Shown: positions 18,470-25,999 of the stretch, one piece after another
Position numbering within the stretch: the stretch's first letter is position 1
Layout of the letters: each line of letters starts with the position of its first letter
From: Prolixibacter sp. SD074
Lineage (GTDB): Bacteria > Bacteroidota > Bacteroidia > Bacteroidales > Prolixibacteraceae
Direction of reading: 5' to 3'
Length of the DNA stretch: 64,000 nt
Assembly (NCBI RefSeq): GCF_009617895.1
Contig: NZ_BLAW01000001.1
Span: 3,215,001-3,279,000, forward strand
Notes under the pieces: model-generated
What the model saw: the letters and a program-made list of their open reading frames with translations, nothing else
What the model was told of the DNA's origin: nothing
Database searches by the model: none
Translations under genes and position numbers: made by a program

Positions 18470-18667
18470 ATGGCAACCGTAATTATTAACGAACGAACAA
18501 AAGCGGGGAAAGCACTGCTGGAATATCTGAAAAATACCGGCCATGCTACTGTTGTAGAAAAATCACCGGCCACCGAAAGTGTTACCAAAGGGCTTTCAGA
18601 GTTAGGCGATGTACTGAAAGGAAAAAGGAAGGGAACCTCCGCCAGAAAATTTTTATCGGAATTATGA
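18470..18667 (+). CDS. Antitoxin of a RelE/ParE-type toxin-antitoxin pair
   Basis: The protein has 65 residues, acidic and basic in turn, beginning MATVIINERTKAGKALLEYL. Its length, position immediately before a RelE-like toxin and 4-bp ATGA overlap with that toxin identify it by context. The N-terminal strand plus helix could be the DNA-binding part; the C-terminal half (KGLSELGDVLKGKRKGTSARKFL) would wrap the toxin. I do not assign a named antitoxin family. Antitoxin-toxin complexes of this type usually repress their own promoter. Confidence 0.75.
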   Translation: MATVIINERTKAGKALLEYLKNTGHATVVEKSPATESVTKGLSELGDVLKGKRKGTSARKFLSEL

Positions 18668-19005
18668 CTGATGTAATTGTATTAGATAATTTTAAACATG
18701 ACGCTAAGCGGCTTGTGAAGAAATACAAAAGCCTGAAAAGCGAACTGAAAGTTTTTATTGAAAAAACCGAAAAGAACGGACCACAGGGAACGTCGATCGG
18801 AGGCGGTTTGTACAAAGCACGGTTAGCAGTTAAATCGAAAGGAAGAGGGAAAAGCGGGGGGATGCGTATTATTTCTTATCATGAAATTATTGTGTCGGCC
18901 GAAAATAATACGGTTTACCTGGTAGCAATGTACGACAAGAGCGAACTTTCTACCCTTGGTAACAAACAGATTAATGAGATTCTTAAAAACTTCGGGATAA
19001 AATGA
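18664..19005 (+). CDS. RelE/ParE-type toxin
   Basis: The protein has 113 residues. The fold signature is DNFKHDAKRLVKKYKSL, then SIGGGLYKARLAVKSKGRGKSGGMRIISY, which is the core strand region of RelE/HigB-like toxins with conserved Lys and Arg, and finally VYLVAMYDKSEL with NEILKNFGIK. RelE-type toxins cut mRNA on the ribosome and ParE-type toxins poison gyrase; the sequence does not say which applies. The ATG overlaps the antitoxin stop, so the pair is translationally coupled. The frame is intact, so the pair may persist by addiction while the rest of the island decays. Confidence 0.85.
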   Translation: MTDVIVLDNFKHDAKRLVKKYKSLKSELKVFIEKTEKNGPQGTSIGGGLYKARLAVKSKGRGKSGGMRIISYHEIIVSAENNTVYLVAMYDKSELSTLGNKQINEILKNFGIK

Positions 19006-19318: not shown

Positions 19319-19345
19319 AGCTCACCTCCCCGGTGGGCTTTTTTT
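19319..19345 (+). terminator. Terminator-like hairpin just before the truncated group II intron
   Basis: AGCTCACC, loop tcccc, GGTGGGCT (one G-T wobble) and seven T form a typical terminator in plus orientation. Intron-related sequence (GTGTG...) begins right after it, so this may mark the deletion or insertion junction. Confidence 0.5.
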
Positions 19346-20439
19346 GGTGTGCCGTGCATGGCAGCAGGCTTGAGATACCTAAAGATGCCCACTCAAAGCG
19401 TCCATTGGGTATTCCGACAGTAGTTGACAGGGTTATTCAACAAGCGATACATCAAATTTTATCACCAGTTTACGAGCGGCAGTTTTCTGACAACAGCTTT
19501 GGTTTCCGGCCTAAACGAAGTACGCACAAAGCTTTATTCCGATGCAAGCGTTATATATCAGAAGGATATAAATACGCTATCGACATGGATATGGCAAAGT
19601 TCTTCGATACGGTCAGCCACAGCAAACTGATAGAAATACTGTCACGAACAGTAAAAGATGGCCGTGTAATCTCACTGGTACACAAATACCTGAATGCAGG
19701 TGTTGTAGTGAACCATAAATTCGAGAGAACGGAATCAGGCGTTCCACAGGGTGGGCCGTTAAGTCCGTTGCTGGGCAACATCATGCTAAATGAACTTGAT
19801 AAAGAGCTTCATAAGCGGGGGCACAAGTTTGTTCGCTACGCCGATGATTTAGTCATTTTGTGTAAGAGCAAGAGGGCAGGAGAGCGGATAATGAACAGCG
19901 TAATTAAGTTCATTGAAGACCATCTTTTTCTGAAAGTGAACAGGGATAAAACCTCGGTTGCCTACTTTAACCGCATCAGGTTTCTGGGATATTCCTTTTA
20001 TCAAATCAAGGGAGAAATCCGGTTTCGCATTCATCCCCAAAGTGTTGTAAAACTGAAAGCAAAATTAAAAGAGCTTACCAGCAGGAGCAACGGTTGGGGA
20101 AATGAAAAGCGTAAAAGTAAATTATCATCCTTTATTAAAGGGTGGCTAAATTATTACAAATATGCTGATATGCTGAAACTAATGGAACGGGTTGATGCAT
20201 GGTACCGCCGAAGGTTGCGAATGGTAACCTGGAAACAGTGGAAGAAGATAAAGACGAAATGGCGTAATCTCATTAAGTTGGGTATTAATAAATACAAAGC
20301 CTGGGAATTTGCCAATACCCGAAAGTCATATTGGCGGACGGCCAAGAGTCCCATTCTCTCCAGAAGTATAACCAACGCCCGTTTACAACAGGCAGGTTAT
20401 ATTTTCCTTACCGATTATTATAAGCAAGTAAGAGTGTGA
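19333..20439 (+). pseudogene. ltrA: Group II intron reverse transcriptase/maturase, N-terminally truncated
   Basis: Recognisable protein starts near 19366 (RLEIPKDAHSKRPLGIPTVV) and runs to the stop at 20439. Present: VIQQAIHQILSPVYE, FGFRPKRSTHKAL, DMDMAKFFDTV (RT3 Asp), ESGVPQGGPLSPLLGN, the catalytic YADD in KFVRYADDLVILC, FLGYSF, and a maturase X domain (FIKGWLNYYKYAD). There is no HNH endonuclease domain. About 90 N-terminal residues (RT0 and part of RT1) are missing, and no intron RNA domains I-III are found upstream, so the element lost its 5' part. It should be unable to splice or move on its own. Confidence 0.85.
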
Positions 20440-20444
20440 TTAAA

Positions 20445-20535
20445 GAACCGCCGTATACCGAACGGTACGTACGGTGGTGTGGGAGGTGTATCAGTGAGAT
20501 AGTAAAATTATCTCACTGACCATCTACCCGATTGA
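20445..20535 (+). ncRNA. 3' end of the group II intron (domains V and VI)
   Basis: Just after the maturase stop, GAACCGCCGTATACC... to ...GTACGGTGGTGT (20445-20480) folds as the domain V hairpin (ACCGCCGTA with TACGGTGGT). Domain VI follows: an 11-bp perfect stem (tcagtgagata at 20491-20501, tatctcactga at 20509-20519). The intron 3' end is near 20530-20534 (ctacccgat), where the integrase reading frame on the other strand begins to make sense. Confidence 0.75.
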
Positions 20536-21381
20536 GCGGAATTTTCGTTGTTTCCTTTTTCCGGGACATGGTTTTTTCCCGTACAAAAACCAGCGTTTCA
20601 CCAAATAGATTATCAAACTGGGCCGATTCGCGAACACTGTGGTAATCCATCCCAGTGAAGCACATAAACAGGAAGTGCCGTAAAACGGTATGTTTGGACG
20701 GGCTGTCGGTGTACTTTCCTTCCTGGTAACTCTTCCATAACTCTTGCAGCTCGTTTTCTTCCAGAAATACCCGATCCATTTTCTGCTTCTTCACGCGAAT
20801 AGACACAAAAGGATTTTCTTTGATGATGCCCTTCCGCTTGGCGATGTTCAGGTAAAGCCGGAAAATCTTTAATTGCTTGTGCAAGGTATTTGTTTCGTTG
20901 TGGTATTTCTGTTTCAACCAGCGGCGGAACAATTCAATAAATTCGGCGTCAATCTCGGAGAACGCTATTTCCTTGCGAAATTCTTTTATTCGGCGTTGAA
21001 TACCTGGTCGCGGGCAATGGTCCGCGGTGCGCTTTCTCCTTTCCGTTCCTTTATGGCCTCCGTCATGAAGGCGTGAAAATCAACGCGCAATGATGGGTTT
21101 TTGTACTCATTTTTAACCAGTGTAGGGGTGAGGGCCTTATTTTGCAACCGGTACCGGACAAATATTTCATTCAACCGGTTCCGGCTGTTCTCAATTATTA
21201 GGTTTTGGTCCTTTGCCGCCTTGCTCGAACCTTTCACCGCTCCTTTTTCCACAACGAACCGGCCGGGCTCACAAAATACTTTTGTGTGAAACTGGACACG
21301 CTCCCCATTCACGTAAACGACCATGTAAACAGGTGCCGTTCCGTCATTCTTGACCTTCCCCAGGGTAGTAATGATGCTCAT
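20513..21381 (-). pseudogene. Tyrosine recombinase (integrase), frameshifted and 3'-truncated
   Basis: The N-terminal part (20986-21381) is an arm-type DNA-binding domain (MSIITTLGKVKNDGTAPVYM...) running into the SAM-like core-binding domain, then the frame is lost near 20995. It resumes in another frame as RIKEFRKEIAFSEIDAEFIE and continues to 20534. The catalytic domain stops at KIPLN, and the last residues (RVDGQ) are read from the intron. The boxes with the catalytic His, Arg and Tyr are all missing, and the first catalytic Arg (usually TGxR) appears as TGMD. The group II intron lies antisense within the gene, so splicing could not repair it. The gene faces the 3' end of tRNA-Arg, a usual attachment site. 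Confidence 0.85.
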
Positions 21382-21488
21382 TTTTTTACGGTAATTTTGC
21401 GGTAAAAATCTTTTTGCGGTAAATCCAGAACGCTGAATCTTTGTAAACGCCCTGAAAATAGGGAGAGCAGTATAAATATACTGCTCTC

Positions 21489-21563
21489 TGGTAGCCTCAC
21501 CAGGACTCGAACCTGGATCTACAGTTTAGGAAACTGTCGTTCTATCCCTTGAACTATGGGGCC
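21489..21563 (-). tRNA. tRNA-Arg (anticodon CCT)
   Basis: The cloverleaf is clear on the minus strand: acceptor GGCCCCA from 21563, D arm GTTC...GAAC, anticodon arm ACAGT-TTCCTAA-ACTGT with anticodon CCT, T arm CCAGG-TTCGAGT-CCTGG, discriminator A and encoded CCA (21489-21491). The 3' acceptor strand is TGAGGCT rather than TGGGGCC, giving one C-A mismatch and a G-U first pair. Since the decayed integrase faces this 3' end, the 3' part may have been replaced by an element-borne copy. Confidence 0.93.
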
Positions 21564-21636: not shown

Positions 21637-22797
21637 TTACCTGTCCGGATCCAACACCGGAACCGCGCACAAACGTTTGGCTGCTTCTTCCAGCACGTCG
21701 TTGTTGCGGGCAAAGCAAATGCGCAACATCCGCGACTTGGTTTTCTCGTGCTGAAAAGCCGAGAGCGGCAACACGGAAACACCGTATTCCCTGACCAGCC
21801 GTATGGCAAATTCCACATCGGTTTCGTCCGATATTTTACTGTAATCGATTACCTGGTAATAGGTGCCGGCAGCTGGAATCACGTCAAAATTGCTTTCATT
21901 CATCAGGCGGTTGAAATAGTTTCGGCATCCCTGGTAGAAATCGGCAATCTCTTCATATTTATTGTCTTTCTGCAGAAATTCGGCCAGCGCATACTGTCCG
22001 GGCGTGTTGACGCTGTAGCCCTGGAACATTTGAATATTCCGGAACTCGTTCATTAGTTTTTCCGGGCCGACCACATAGGCGATTCCCCAGCCACTGATTT
22101 TATACACCGGTCCGAAGGACGAAACCACCAGGCTGCGTTCGGCCAGTTCGGGTACCGACGACATACTGCGGTGTTTCTCTTCGTCGAAGACAATGTGCTC
22201 GAAAATCTCGTTGGCGAGAATTACAATTCGCGTTCCATTGGTCAGCCTTTTCAACTGGTTGATGTCCTCTTCGTTCATCACCCGTCCGGTGGGGTTCTGC
22301 GGGTTGTTGATGATGATCATCCGGGTTTTGGCATTCATCAGCTTCTTCACATCATCCCAGTCGATGTGAAAATCGGGATTTTTCAGGTTAACGTAAACCG
22401 GACGTCCGCCATTCAGCTCGATCGCCGAGATGTACGATTCCGAAACGGGCTCGAATACCAGCACTTCCTCACCTTCTTTAATAAAGGCGCTGATAGTGGT
22501 TGCCATGGCTTGTGTAGAACCGGCGGTAATGGTGATTTCGCTATTCGGATTATATTCTTTTTGATGCAATTGCTTAATGCGGTTGACGATCACTTGTCGC
22601 AGCGGCTCAATCCCTTCCATGGGCGCATAGTTGTTATATCCTTCCGATACGTACTTATGCATCAGATCAACGAGGGGTTCGGGGCTGGGTAGATCAGAAA
22701 CCGACAGGGCCAGGTCAATTGCATGATGTTTTTTGGCCAATTCGGTCATCGTCGCAATGATACTTCTTCTTGTTGTTGGCAATTTTGATGAAACCAT
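21637..22797 (-). CDS. PLP-aminotransferase-fold protein lacking the catalytic lysine
   Basis: The protein has 386 residues and aligns along its length with class I aminotransferases of the methionine/kynurenine type (E. coli YbdL family): NNYAPMEGIEPLRQ, ITAGSTQAM, INNPQNPTG, SVNTPGQYALA, and the substrate-binding Arg359 in MLRICFAR. Key residues differ. Where the family has SFGKTYxxTGW with the PLP-binding Lys, this protein has SSFGPVYKISGW, so Lys becomes Pro230 and the nearest Lys is three residues on. The PLP-nitrogen Asp of (S/A)DEVYEH is Asn196 (ANEIFEH), and its Tyr is Phe199. The frame is intact and a good promoter precedes it, so it is more likely a repurposed homologue than a dying gene. 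Ordinary transaminase activity is unlikely. Confidence 0.8.
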   Translation of the reverse strand: MVSSKLPTTRRSIIATMTELAKKHHAIDLALSVSDLPSPEPLVDLMHKYVSEGYNNYAPMEGIEPLRQVIVNRIKQLHQKEYNPNSEITITAGSTQAMATTISAFIKEGEEVLVFEPVSESYISAIELNGGRPVYVNLKNPDFHIDWDDVKKLMNAKTRMIIINNPQNPTGRVMNEEDINQLKRLTNGTRIVILANEIFEHIVFDEEKHRSMSSVPELAERSLVVSSFGPVYKISGWGIAYVVGPEKLMNEFRNIQMFQGYSVNTPGQYALAEFLQKDNKYEEIADFYQGCRNYFNRLMNESNFDVIPAAGTYYQVIDYSKISDETDVEFAIRLVREYGVSVLPLSAFQHEKTKSRMLRICFARNNDVLEEAAKRLCAVPVLDPDR

Positions 22798-22820: not shown

Positions 22821-22849
22821 CAAAAGTAGTAATTATTTGGCTGGCACAA
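22821..22849 (-). promoter_or_regulatory. Bacteroidota-type promoter of the aminotransferase-like gene
   Basis: On the minus strand, TTG, 18 bp, then TACTTTTG fits the -33/-7 consensus of the Bacteroidota primary sigma factor (TTG and TAnnTTTG). The -7 box (22821-22828) ends 24 bp before the ATG, giving a short leader. Confidence 0.6.
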
Positions 22850-22915: not shown

Positions 22916-23641
22916 CTACAAAAATAATTCCCGCAGGATCGACAGGGATTTAATGTGGATGGTAGTTTCAAGATGCAAACTGAAATAATTCAGCAAGGCC
23001 TCCAGGTAGCGGTCCCGCAGTTTGTGATCGAGCTTCAGTGTTGCGAGGGAATCGAAGTTAACGTGAATCAACTTCGCAAATATCCGGCTTTCCTCTTTCA
23101 TCAGGTAGTCGGGATGGGGAGGGGGCATGGTCACAAACACACCGTTGCGAAGGTCGAAATAGGGCTTTTCGCCTGAATAATTGTCCCGTGGACCAAATCC
23201 CAGGTAACGGGCAAGCTGTAGCAAAAAAACCAGGTGAAAATTGGCGGTCCCTTCCGTAGCTAAATCGAGATATTGTACCGAATGAAACAGGAATTCAAAA
23301 AGTTCCGGACGAGGTTCCTCTTCCCGCAACACTTTGTACAGGATTTCCGCCAGGAACATGGCTTGCGTGGATTTCCCGATTTCGAAAGGAATGGTGGTAT
23401 AAGGGAGAGTGTTTCGCATCTCTTTCACCCGTTGTAACTCCCGTCCCGGCTTGTACGATACTTCCATGTCGAGCAAAAAGAGCGGCTGCAACAGGTTGGC
23501 TTTGCTGCGCGACTTCTTTCCGTGTATGCCCTGCATCATGAACGACATTCGGCCAAACGCTTCGGTGTACAGCGTGACAATCATACTGGTTTCGCCATAG
23601 CGAAGGTAATGCAGGACGATGGCGCGAGTTTTTTGTTGCAT
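22916..23641 (-). CDS. recO: DNA repair protein RecO
   Basis: The protein has 241 residues, the usual length. The N-terminal OB-fold is plain (TRAIVLHYLRYGETSMIVTLYTEAFGRMSFMMQGIHGKKS), followed by PLFLLDMEVSYKPGRELQRVKE and the helical C-terminal domain with LARYLGFGPRDNY. RecO works with RecR to load RecA at gaps and anneals single strands. The zinc-binding cysteines of some RecO proteins are not seen, which is usual for Bacteroidota. Its start lies 3 bp after the stop of porZ, so it is probably the last gene of that operon. Confidence 0.93.
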   Translation of the reverse strand: MQQKTRAIVLHYLRYGETSMIVTLYTEAFGRMSFMMQGIHGKKSRSKANLLQPLFLLDMEVSYKPGRELQRVKEMRNTLPYTTIPFEIGKSTQAMFLAEILYKVLREEEPRPELFEFLFHSVQYLDLATEGTANFHLVFLLQLARYLGFGPRDNYSGEKPYFDLRNGVFVTMPPPHPDYLMKEESRIFAKLIHVNFDSLATLKLDHKLRDRYLEALLNYFSLHLETTIHIKSLSILRELFL

Positions 23642-23644
23642 GGT

Positions 23645-25957
23645 TTACCGGATAAAAAGCAGTTTGGCCACAAAACTCTGGTCGCCGTTTTGGTCGGAGC
23701 AGAAGACCAGGTAAACACCGGTGTTCACCCGACGTCCGTACGAATCTTTTCCGTTCCAGATAGCCCGGCCACCATTCGAAGTGGTCTGAAAAACCAGGTT
23801 CCCGGCAATGTCCGTTATTTTCACGGTCGACTGCTCCATCAGGCCGTCGATGGTAATGTCGCCGTGGTAGGTTTCCCTGACCGGATTGGGAAACACGTAT
23901 ACGTTGGCAAACGTTTGATTGCCGCCCGAGGCATCACTCATGTACGACTGGATGCCATAATCGGTGGCAAAGAACACTTCACCGTTTTTCGCATTGATGG
24001 TTATCGACTTGATATTGTTGGAGAGAAGCGGTGAATTATCGGTATTAAACTGACGAATGAGTGTTTGCCCGTCATCCGAGAAGAGAAAGGCCCCGGAGTT
24101 TTTTGTTCCGAACCATTTGCGGTTGCCGCCATCCACGGCAATCGAGGTGACCACTTCTTTTCCCAGCAGCGGGTGATAGAGGCCGTCGCCCAAATCAACA
24201 CCGGGCTGGATGCCGTAAAAGTCGGACGTGTCGAAAACCTTACCGGGATTGTAATATTCCACCACGCCTTTTCCGGTTCCCACCCACAAGGCGCCGTCCT
24301 GGTCTTCGTCCATGCACTGGATGTTGGAATAGAGTTTGGTAATGGTGGTTTCGTTGTTTGAGAAAACGCTTTTCACCGTCAGCTTCCGGTATTTGTCATC
24401 GGTCTGGTCCTCAATAGTGCGATTGTCATCGAAAGCAAACAGTCCCACGTTGGTGATGATGGCCCACTTGATGCCTGATTTTGTAGCCAGAATATCGCCC
24501 ACAAAATTGTCGGTGCTTTCCAGTCCCGGGTATTTCAGGCTGGCCCAGCTGCCATCTTCTTTCAGCACCTTCACCTGATGTTCGACCAAAGCATTGGTCA
24601 TCCAGAGATTGTTATTCCGGTCGAACGACAGGCCGCCAATCCAGCACAGGTTTTCGCCATACGCTTCCAAAGGCGAGTTAGGCGCATCGTAATGTGCAGT
24701 TGCCTGCAGATTTTCGAAGGCAATCAACCCTTTTCCCCACGAAGCACCGTAAAACCTATCGGGGTTTCCGGGTACGGAAGCCACGCGGACCAAATCGTTT
24801 ACATTGTCGAGATTCGTGGAAGTATTTGCGTTAACCGTGTGCCATTCGCCATTACTTAAAAGATGAACTTCAGCGGGCACGAAAACATCGCCGCTTTTGG
24901 AACCAGTGGCGGCAAAAACGGTCCCGTCGCCGGACGAGAGTGATGCCCCCAGGTTATCAGCCGGGCCATCGGGAATGATTTGCTGAAAACTGCCACCCGC
25001 GGTTCGTTCAATCATGCCGAATTTGCTGTCGCCAATCCAGAGGCTCCCGTCATTCCCGGCGAAAGCACCGGTGGGAGATATGGTTTGCCACTGCACAATT
25101 TCAGGGCTGTAGGTAGTGATGGACGAAAGCGAAGAGCCGTTGTATACATCCACCGATTCACTTCGGGTAATGACCAACCGATTGTTGTTGCCGGTCAGGT
25201 TCAGACAGTCGTTAACGCCGGTTAAAGCTGTTTGCCAGTAATTTCTGTTCCACCGATATAGTTGTTTTGCTGTATTATCGAAAGCATACAGTTCGTTCTG
25301 AAAAGAAGCGATGGAAGTAAAGTCGTCGGTGGCTCCCGGAACCGTGGTTTGCTGTTCCCAGTTGGCGTAATCCTGCAGGTTGGGTTCGTCTTTTCGGGCC
25401 CGGTAAATTCCGTTGGCGGTGGCTGCCCAGTAATATTGGTCATCGATGGCCAACGCGTTTACCATCACCGAAGCGCCGCCATTTCCAATCAACCACGTTT
25501 CGCTGATTTCCCGTTTCTCCACGTTCAGTTTCACGATGCCGAATCCGCAGCTGAGATAAGCATCGTTGCCATCGGTGACGATTTGGTTGATAGATTTCCG
25601 TGTAAGGTTCGTCTTCCGCTTGATAGCAGAAATGTTGTGCACATTCTCTCCCTCCAGTAAATCGATGTTGCCGTTGGAGTATCCGATAACCAGCACGCCT
25701 GCTCCGTCCGACCAGCCGATGGCCGAAATGCCGGCGTCCGACAAACCTTCCACGCGGGTGAAGGCCTCCACACTGTTATCGCTTTGGTTATAACTAAAAA
25801 GTCCCTGTGTGGTAGCAGCGAAAATTTTCCCGCCCGCTTCGGCCACGGCCATCACATCGTTGAACGAAAGATGTGAACGCCAGTGGTACAGCGGCACCTG
25901 GGCATGTGTAATTCCGGTAACCAGTAAAAGGAGGAGAAGGTAAATTCGTTTGTGCAT
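23645..25957 (-). CDS. porZ: Type IX secretion system component PorZ (beta-propeller protein)
   Basis: From the ATG at 25957 the protein has 770 residues with a signal peptide (MHKRIYLLLLLLVTGITHA); a start nine codons upstream would spoil the signal. The mature N-terminus QVPLYHWRSHLSFNDVMAVA is characteristic of PorZ. Two propellers follow, built of blades such as GLFSYNQSDNSVEAFTRVEGL and ALWVGTGKGVVEYYNP. The last ~85 residues are a T9SS-type C-terminal domain (VYVFPNPVRETYHGDI... to FVAKLLFIR). PorZ is a surface part of the attachment complex that supplies A-LPS to T9SS cargo. It implies that the organism secretes proteins by T9SS. Confidence 0.9.
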   Translation of the reverse strand: MHKRIYLLLLLLVTGITHAQVPLYHWRSHLSFNDVMAVAEAGGKIFAATTQGLFSYNQSDNSVEAFTRVEGLSDAGISAIGWSDGAGVLVIGYSNGNIDLLEGENVHNISAIKRKTNLTRKSINQIVTDGNDAYLSCGFGIVKLNVEKREISETWLIGNGGASVMVNALAIDDQYYWAATANGIYRARKDEPNLQDYANWEQQTTVPGATDDFTSIASFQNELYAFDNTAKQLYRWNRNYWQTALTGVNDCLNLTGNNNRLVITRSESVDVYNGSSLSSITTYSPEIVQWQTISPTGAFAGNDGSLWIGDSKFGMIERTAGGSFQQIIPDGPADNLGASLSSGDGTVFAATGSKSGDVFVPAEVHLLSNGEWHTVNANTSTNLDNVNDLVRVASVPGNPDRFYGASWGKGLIAFENLQATAHYDAPNSPLEAYGENLCWIGGLSFDRNNNLWMTNALVEHQVKVLKEDGSWASLKYPGLESTDNFVGDILATKSGIKWAIITNVGLFAFDDNRTIEDQTDDKYRKLTVKSVFSNNETTITKLYSNIQCMDEDQDGALWVGTGKGVVEYYNPGKVFDTSDFYGIQPGVDLGDGLYHPLLGKEVVTSIAVDGGNRKWFGTKNSGAFLFSDDGQTLIRQFNTDNSPLLSNNIKSITINAKNGEVFFATDYGIQSYMSDASGGNQTFANVYVFPNPVRETYHGDITIDGLMEQSTVKITDIAGNLVFQTTSNGGRAIWNGKDSYGRRVNTGVYLVFCSDQNGDQSFVAKLLFIR

Positions 25958-25999
25958 TCCGTCAGGTTTGTTTTCTTGCCACAAGTTAAAAAAATCGCG

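Follow-up and report, generated by a model that had tools for sequence, protein, structure and literature searches.

The gene analysed here lies in a window of 64,000 nucleotides from Prolixibacter sp. SD074. Its 386-aa product is best explained, with moderate confidence and on the strength of sequence comparison, as a pseudoenzyme: a former YbdL-type methionine aminotransferase whose PLP chemistry was lost ancestrally and which would have been kept as a folded, probably PLP-free and perhaps carboxylate-sensing protein. The loss of normal aminotransferase catalysis, taken by itself, is well supported by the alignments, and the known mechanism should be impossible, since the lysine and most of the cofactor contacts are gone. 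The catalytic residue has been lost throughout the clade while purifying selection persists, the combination by which a pseudoenzyme is recognised.

The gene product and its cofactor site

The open reading frame starts with the ATG at 22797 on the minus strand and runs for 386 codons, without internal stops, to a stop codon ending at 21637; the first-pass annotation was therefore right in calling the gene intact. The protein matched Aminotran_1_2 in Pfam and the methionine aminotransferase model NF006569 in NCBIfam (442.7 bits, for a cut-off of 420), and its best solved relative was Escherichia coli YbdL (PDB 1u08; phmmer E 3.3e-87, residues 3–376). The AlphaFold2 model had a mean pLDDT of 91.2 and a pTM of 0.90, with residues 1–10 below 50, and was superposed on 1u08 with a Z of 54.0 and 1.5 Å across 379 residues. 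By both phmmer and the superposition, the fold-type I aminotransferase architecture is present from end to end, and the agreement of the model with 1u08 suggests that the YbdL fold is whole. No close Lys-bearing paralogue was found in the same genome, in which the next match was 27% identical.

The window protein thus shares its fold with YbdL (NF006569) and aligns with it end to end, but, unlike YbdL, it lacks the Schiff-base lysine, the ring-nitrogen Asp, the O3' Tyr and the phosphate Lys. In the 1u08 alignment, SDEVYEH and SSFGKTYHMTGWKVGY of YbdL correspond to ANEIFEH and SSFGPVYKISGWGIAY of the window protein. The Schiff-base lysine of SFGK is absent (Pro230), and the PLP ring contacts are now Asn196, Phe199 and, in place of the stacking Tyr119, Ser119. 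Of the phosphate cup, Lys238 has become Gly238, yet Tyr57 and Thr95 are present; five of ten key active-site residues are kept. The roles of these positions were taken from aspartate aminotransferase, in which the PLP and substrate contacts are established as Asn194, Asp222, Tyr225, Lys258, Arg266 and Arg386. The residue numbers given earlier for Pro230, Asn196, Phe199, Gly238 and Arg359 agree with the codons and with the 1u08 alignment (Table 1).

Table 1. Features of the pseudo-aminotransferase gene and its upstream region (window coordinates).
Feature	Position	Strand	Basis
YbdL-type pseudo-aminotransferase CDS, lysine-free, 386 aa	21637..22797	-	ORF, profile matches, AlphaFold2 model
Arg359 codon, kept; substrate carboxylate Arg of active relatives	21721..21723	-	Arg in 78/79, slow site
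Gly238 codon, site of GW[K/R] phosphate-binding residue	22084..22086	-	Gly in 71/79
Pro230 codon, site of PLP Schiff-base lysine	22108..22110	-	non-Lys in 79/80 distinct family sequences
Phe199 codon, site of Tyr binding PLP O3'	22201..22203	-	Phe in 74/79
Asn196 codon, site of Asp pairing with PLP ring nitrogen	22210..22212	-	1u08 alignment
Asn168 codon, kept, N-P-x-G motif	22294..22296	-	Asn in 78/79, slow site
Bacteroidota-type promoter candidate, TTG-N18-TAnnTTTG	22821..22849	-	TA starts 31 bases before ATG
recO, conserved upstream neighbour	22916..23641	-	Pfam RecO_N, RecO_C; synteny
porZ (type IX secretion), conserved second neighbour	23645..25984	-	Pfam PorZ_N_b_propeller, E 1e-45; synteny

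Distribution of lysine-free sequences in the Prolixibacteraceae

A match at E 1e-50 was found in 81 of 140 Prolixibacteraceae genomes, from 16 of 23 genera; 59 genomes had none, and the gene is dispensable in this family. The sequences come from 75 of the 81 genomes with a match and from extra loci found by similarity search, with identical sequences removed and the orthologues of six matching genomes (G019, G021, G022, G025, G027 and G029) outside the count. The lysine was absent from 79 of the 80 distinct YbdL-type sequences of the family. The lysine-free set was defined by the lack of this residue and a score above 300; the one family sequence above 300 with the lysine (L104) is the second copy in G094, the main copy of which (L039) lacks it. 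No other genome among the 81 had a second YbdL of more than 40% identity. Six distant aminotransferases (L002 and L106–L110; scores below 200, all with the lysine) were excluded, and some of the 79 sequences, from records labelled Bacteroidia or Bacteroidetes, were assigned to the Prolixibacteraceae by similarity. Every lysine-free sequence forms one uninterrupted reading frame, 384–436 codons long from stop to stop; the orthologue in Prolixibacter bellariivorans is 93% identical to the window protein, and all 34 representative proteins match NF006569 at E 1e-50 or better.

The lysine site is occupied by Pro (61), Ala (9), Thr (4), Ser (2), His (1), Asp (1) or Arg (1). The substitutions are thus not peculiar to one genome, a case that the first-pass annotation had considered. 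Its suggestion that a clade shares the Pro/Asn/Phe/Gly set held for Pro, Phe and Gly (61, 74 and 71 of the 79 sequences, respectively), but not for Asn196, which is found in 34 sequences, with Asp in 40 and another residue in five. Tyr57 is retained in 50 of the 79 and Thr95 in four. The possibility that the lysine had moved to a nearby position was rejected: the genus has K233, but site 233 is Asn in 64, His in seven, Lys in four and Arg in four of the 79 sequences. Five residues, G62, L66, R67, P266 and Q268, are invariant among the 34 representatives and, from known aminotransferase structures, presumably lie at or near the dimer interface.

Phylogeny and repeated loss of the lysine

In a tree built from 34 lysine-free proteins of the family, together with 29 Lys-bearing relatives and three outgroup rows, the lysine-free proteins formed a single clade (100/100) nested among the Lys-bearing relatives, so one old loss explains the data within the Prolixibacteraceae. 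Beyond the family, we considered 28 order-level loci, 60 further matches from other families of the order that were chosen rather than drawn at random, 29 class-level loci and some additional loci. The lysine was kept in all of the best 28 order-level and best 29 class-level loci that were read. It was absent from six of the 60 further matches, with Ile in L244, Glu in L255, L268 and L271, and Arg in L267 and L273, and from four f30 copies in as many genomes (L274–L277, Glu at this site), three of which lie directly behind recO.

A single origin of all lysine-free copies was rejected, since the 20 lysine-free rows constrained as one clade gave a p-AU of 2.1e-10. Families f1 and f30 as one clade were compatible with the data (p 0.29), and the Prolixibacteraceae clade and f30 could share one loss. 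For both tests, the constraint groups were named after the tree was seen, and f30 has long branches. L267 and L244 have Lys-bearing sisters (L278 and L285, respectively) at 100/100. The careful tree needed six lysine changes, four of them forced by starred branches, which suggests that the lysine has been lost four to six times in the order. A "divergent clade" uniting all lysine-free rows appeared only in a quick tree, was absent from the careful tree and was discarded as a possible product of long-branch attraction.

All ten key residues were kept in 25 of 26 other Lys-bearing relatives. Among the 20 rows of the divergent lineages, L282 also has all ten, whereas the partly eroded Lys-bearing rows L264 and L288 keep five and six, respectively. 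Because Lys-bearing relatives and such intermediates still exist, comparative work can test how an enzyme was turned, step by step, into a non-enzyme. Two cases may be mentioned separately: the genome G228 (f90) carries both the Lys-bearing L254 and the lysine-free L255, a possible enzyme/pseudoenzyme pair, and in the Lys-bearing, recO-linked L235 (G235, f97), the near-universal Arg359 aligns as Gly.

Selection and site rates

Pairwise dN/dS values were obtained by the NG86 and YN00 methods. Among four Prolixibacter sequences they ranged from 0.047 to 0.084 (NG86) and from 0.054 to 0.108 (YN00), and the 115 near pairs available within the lysine-free family set had a median of 0.044 (range 0.014–0.088). 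In the same Prolixibacter genomes, the NG86 values were 0.014–0.048 for recO and 0.035–0.062 for porZ; the Lys-bearing relatives offered only two usable pairs (0.050 and 0.078). The pseudo-aminotransferase gene is somewhat less constrained than recO and porZ, and it is far from neutral. A dN/dS calculation had been proposed as a check in the first-pass annotation, and the values found are low (about 0.01–0.09). Together with the clade-wide loss of the lysine, they support its view that selection kept a non-transaminase function. Random decay and sequencing error are disfavoured by the 79 distinct open sequences and the low dN/dS.

Site rates were compared between 31 family sequences (the 34 representatives without the long L096, L103 and L105) and 29 Lys-bearing sequences. 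The rate percentiles, lysine-free versus Lys-bearing, were 83 versus 16 for residue 57, 96 versus 47 for residue 94, 72 versus 4 for residue 95, 57 versus 16 for residue 119, 84 versus 8 for residue 230 and 67 versus 26 for residue 238. Asn164 and Asn168 (3 versus 5 each) and Arg359 (16 versus 9) were slow in both sets. Ser226 and Ser227 stood at percentiles 1 and 17 in the lysine-free set, and positions 196 and 199, at 25 and 30, were, like 227, still fairly slow. By this measure, the phosphate cup, the ring-stacking position and the Schiff-base site are released from constraint, whereas the floor of the cleft, which receives the substrate carboxylate in active enzymes, is kept. A structural role for Asn164, Asn168 and Arg359 would give the same rate pattern. 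The storage of PLP, suggested earlier as one possible function, is disfavoured, because the phosphate-binding and ring-stacking sites have lost constraint; ligand sensing, another function suggested there, is still plausible.

Promoter and gene neighbourhood

TAnnTTTG is the -7 element of Bacteroidota promoters. Apart from the TTG-N18-TAnnTTTG sequence at 22821–22849, the window contains no match to this pattern, but chance alone would give 1.2, so the earlier claim of a promoter is not significant on the full match alone; it is the conservation of TAnnTTTG in relatives that sustains it. Of 78 lysine-free genes of the family, 75 carry this element in the 150 bp upstream and 66 have it at -40 to -20, for expectations of 9.3 and 1.3 from shuffled sequences; upstream of recO, the counts were 3/82 and 0/82. 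The fuller pattern, with TTG 17–20 bases further upstream, was present in 23 of the 78 genes. TAnnTTTG also preceded 21 of 28 genes of Lys-bearing relatives (14 at -40 to -20), and a promoter of the gene's own therefore looks inherited rather than new.

Synteny was studied in 123 loci, a redundant set in which some loci end at contig edges and 28 are Lys-bearing loci from other families. RecO was directly upstream in 85 of the 123, including a single Lys-bearing locus (L121), while 72 had a PorZ-family gene and 68 a third gene family; from its sequence start, we take the third to be RdgB. In each of 17 gene-less family genomes, recO adjoins porZ, and no remnant of the missing gene was found near recO by tblastn with a threshold of E 1; the contigs end just after recO in L202 and L204, so 15 of these 17 genomes are informative. 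In nine gene-less loci (L195, L197–L199, L201, L206, L208, L209 and L211), a convergent gene of about 475 codons directly follows recO; the sequence starts of these genes are alike and resemble, by eye, Memo/AmmeMemoRadiSam proteins. In about ten other loci, a gene family of this kind comes after the pseudoenzyme.

Outside the family, ybdL follows recO in 15 of 120 genomes (recO was found in 116, and coordinates were compared by eye), spread over f18, f30, f82, f89, f97 and f115, with a gap of 1.36 kb in G156. Among the members read at the residue level, the lysine is present in f18, f89, f97, f115 and the recO-linked f82 copies, whereas those of f30 are without it; porZ and the RdgB-like gene also lie upstream of the f82 copies L278 and L279 and the f115 copy L289. 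The presence of lysine-bearing ybdL genes behind recO in related families makes conversion in place likely for the Prolixibacteraceae; judged from these comparisons, it is the simplest reading, although not a proven one. Inherited gene order may be all that lies behind the linkage to recO and porZ. In eight of the 28 Lys-bearing loci of other families, ybdL adjoins a gene that looks, by eye, like a carbon-nitrogen hydrolase; no such gene was seen in the flanks (1.5–8 kb) of the family's lysine-free loci.

Possible functions of the lysine-free protein

In the reading that we favour, PLP chemistry would have been lost in the ancestor of the Prolixibacteraceae lineages carrying the gene. The protein would still form the usual homodimer, and the Arg359/Asn168 floor of the old cleft might bind a small carboxylate without cofactor; methionine or the corresponding keto acid would be examples of such an amino or keto acid ligand. 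The dimer could then open or close and so signal to a partner, and gene linkage is the sole reason for proposing RecO and PorZ in this role. The main ground for a PLP-free protein with a cofactor-free carboxylate ligand is that the cofactor sites have been released while the carboxylate floor has been kept, and carboxylate sensing is ranked first because, within the family, it is the carboxylate residues of the site that persist. Weak non-covalent binding of PLP is still conceivable, given Asp196 in 40 of the 79 sequences and the fairly slow positions 196, 199 and 227.

A broader and tentative extension, to which we give a modest chance, is that YbdL-type proteins of the order repeatedly became cofactor-free amino- or keto-acid sensors, often behind recO/porZ, and that sensing came first, in Lys-bearing members. 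Sensing would then have made the lysine dispensable, so that it was lost four to six times independently. The 20 rows of other divergent lineages keep Arg359 in 19 cases and Asn168 in only 10; that half of them are without Asn168 counts against a ligand shared across lineages.

Arg359 and Asn168 may instead be kept for structure. A purely structural or scaffold protein, serving as a platform for protein-protein contact with no small-molecule ligand, would fit the free variation of much of the old cleft alongside invariant positions elsewhere in the fold, as well as the loss of Asn168 in those other lineages. However, this explanation appears unlikely, since 78 of the 79 family sequences retain Asn168 and as many retain Arg359, and Arg359 persists almost throughout the other lineages, which is more than an empty cleft would seem to need.

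A further possibility is that the protein is a non-catalytic heterodimer subunit that pairs with and tunes an active aminotransferase, as LCB1 does with LCB2. The fold type offers a precedent in LCB1/SPTLC1 of serine palmitoyltransferase, a homologue of PLP enzymes that persists although it lacks the PLP lysine (PMC3794620), and the five invariant residues that presumably lie at or near the dimer interface are in agreement with such a role. LCB1, however, works with an active paralogue, and the window genome has no close one; among the 81 family genomes, a second YbdL above 40% identity was seen only in G094. We consider the heterodimer quite unlikely, while noting that a more distant active partner is possible.

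There is only a slim chance that the protein is a new enzyme, either PMP- or PLP-dependent with another base or catalysing a PLP-free reaction in the old cleft. GDP-4-keto-6-deoxymannose 3-dehydratase has His in place of the Lys. The presence of Asp or Asn at position 196 in 74 of the 79 sequences and the slow evolution of Ser227 and Asn168 are compatible with catalysis, and Lys157 and Lys352 are more conserved in the lysine-free clade (77/79 and 76/79) than in the Lys-bearing relatives (7/29 and 13/29). Nevertheless, the old lysine site is Pro, Ala, Thr, Ser or Asp in 77 of the 79 sequences, the phosphate-contact sites 57, 95 and 238 evolve fast, and the seven lysines that are conserved in at least 85% of the clade all lie outside the old lysine loop. 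Slow decay under relaxed selection would account for the 59 family genomes without a match and for a dN/dS somewhat above those of recO and porZ, but it is highly improbable given clade-wide dN/dS values far below 1, single open frames, a conserved promoter element and the lack of remnants at the checkable gene-less loci.

Relation to known proteins

YbdL is a methionine aminotransferase, and related enzymes are coupled to omega-amidase, according to PMC9309667. Two other PLP-enzyme homologues bear comparison with the sensor-like pseudoenzyme proposed here. Rv3778c of Mycobacterium tuberculosis is presented as an expressed homologue without the PLP lysine, judged likely to be noncatalytic (PMC12910592), and the yeast aminotransferase paralogue Alt2 as having lost transaminase activity and being thought to have an undiscovered function (PMC5960717). 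Rv3778c is related to cysteine desulfurases, whereas the window protein is of the class I aminotransferase type. LCB1, Rv3778c and Alt2 show that PLP-enzyme homologues can persist without the ancestral catalysis. Rv3778c was the only lysine-free bacterial PLP-enzyme relative that we found described in the literature searched. No published lysine-free YbdL clade was found in a search of mostly non-subscription literature, based partly on the best-listed matches and on some phrases that were perhaps too exact. Pseudoenzymes are a known kind of protein, and the lysine-free YbdL-type family adds to them a family-wide clade that is nearly always single-copy, along with several losses of the lysine elsewhere in the order. 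The name "methionine aminotransferase" attached by NF006569 to lysine-free proteins is likely to be an annotation error; since this model matches them, automatic annotation would credit them with an activity that they probably lack.

Other features of the window

A tRNA-Arg gene (CCT) is located at 21489–21563 on the minus strand. Next comes a tyrosine-recombinase gene that is broken into two open frames (20986–21381, Arm-DNA-bind_5; 20513–20932, Phage_int_SAM_5), with a group II intron reverse transcriptase (19333–20439, plus strand) adjoining it. The region 19333–21563 looks like the broken end of an element integrated at the tRNA. A small gene at 18664–19005 (plus strand) encodes a RelE-type toxin domain (PF06296, E 8.1e-8).
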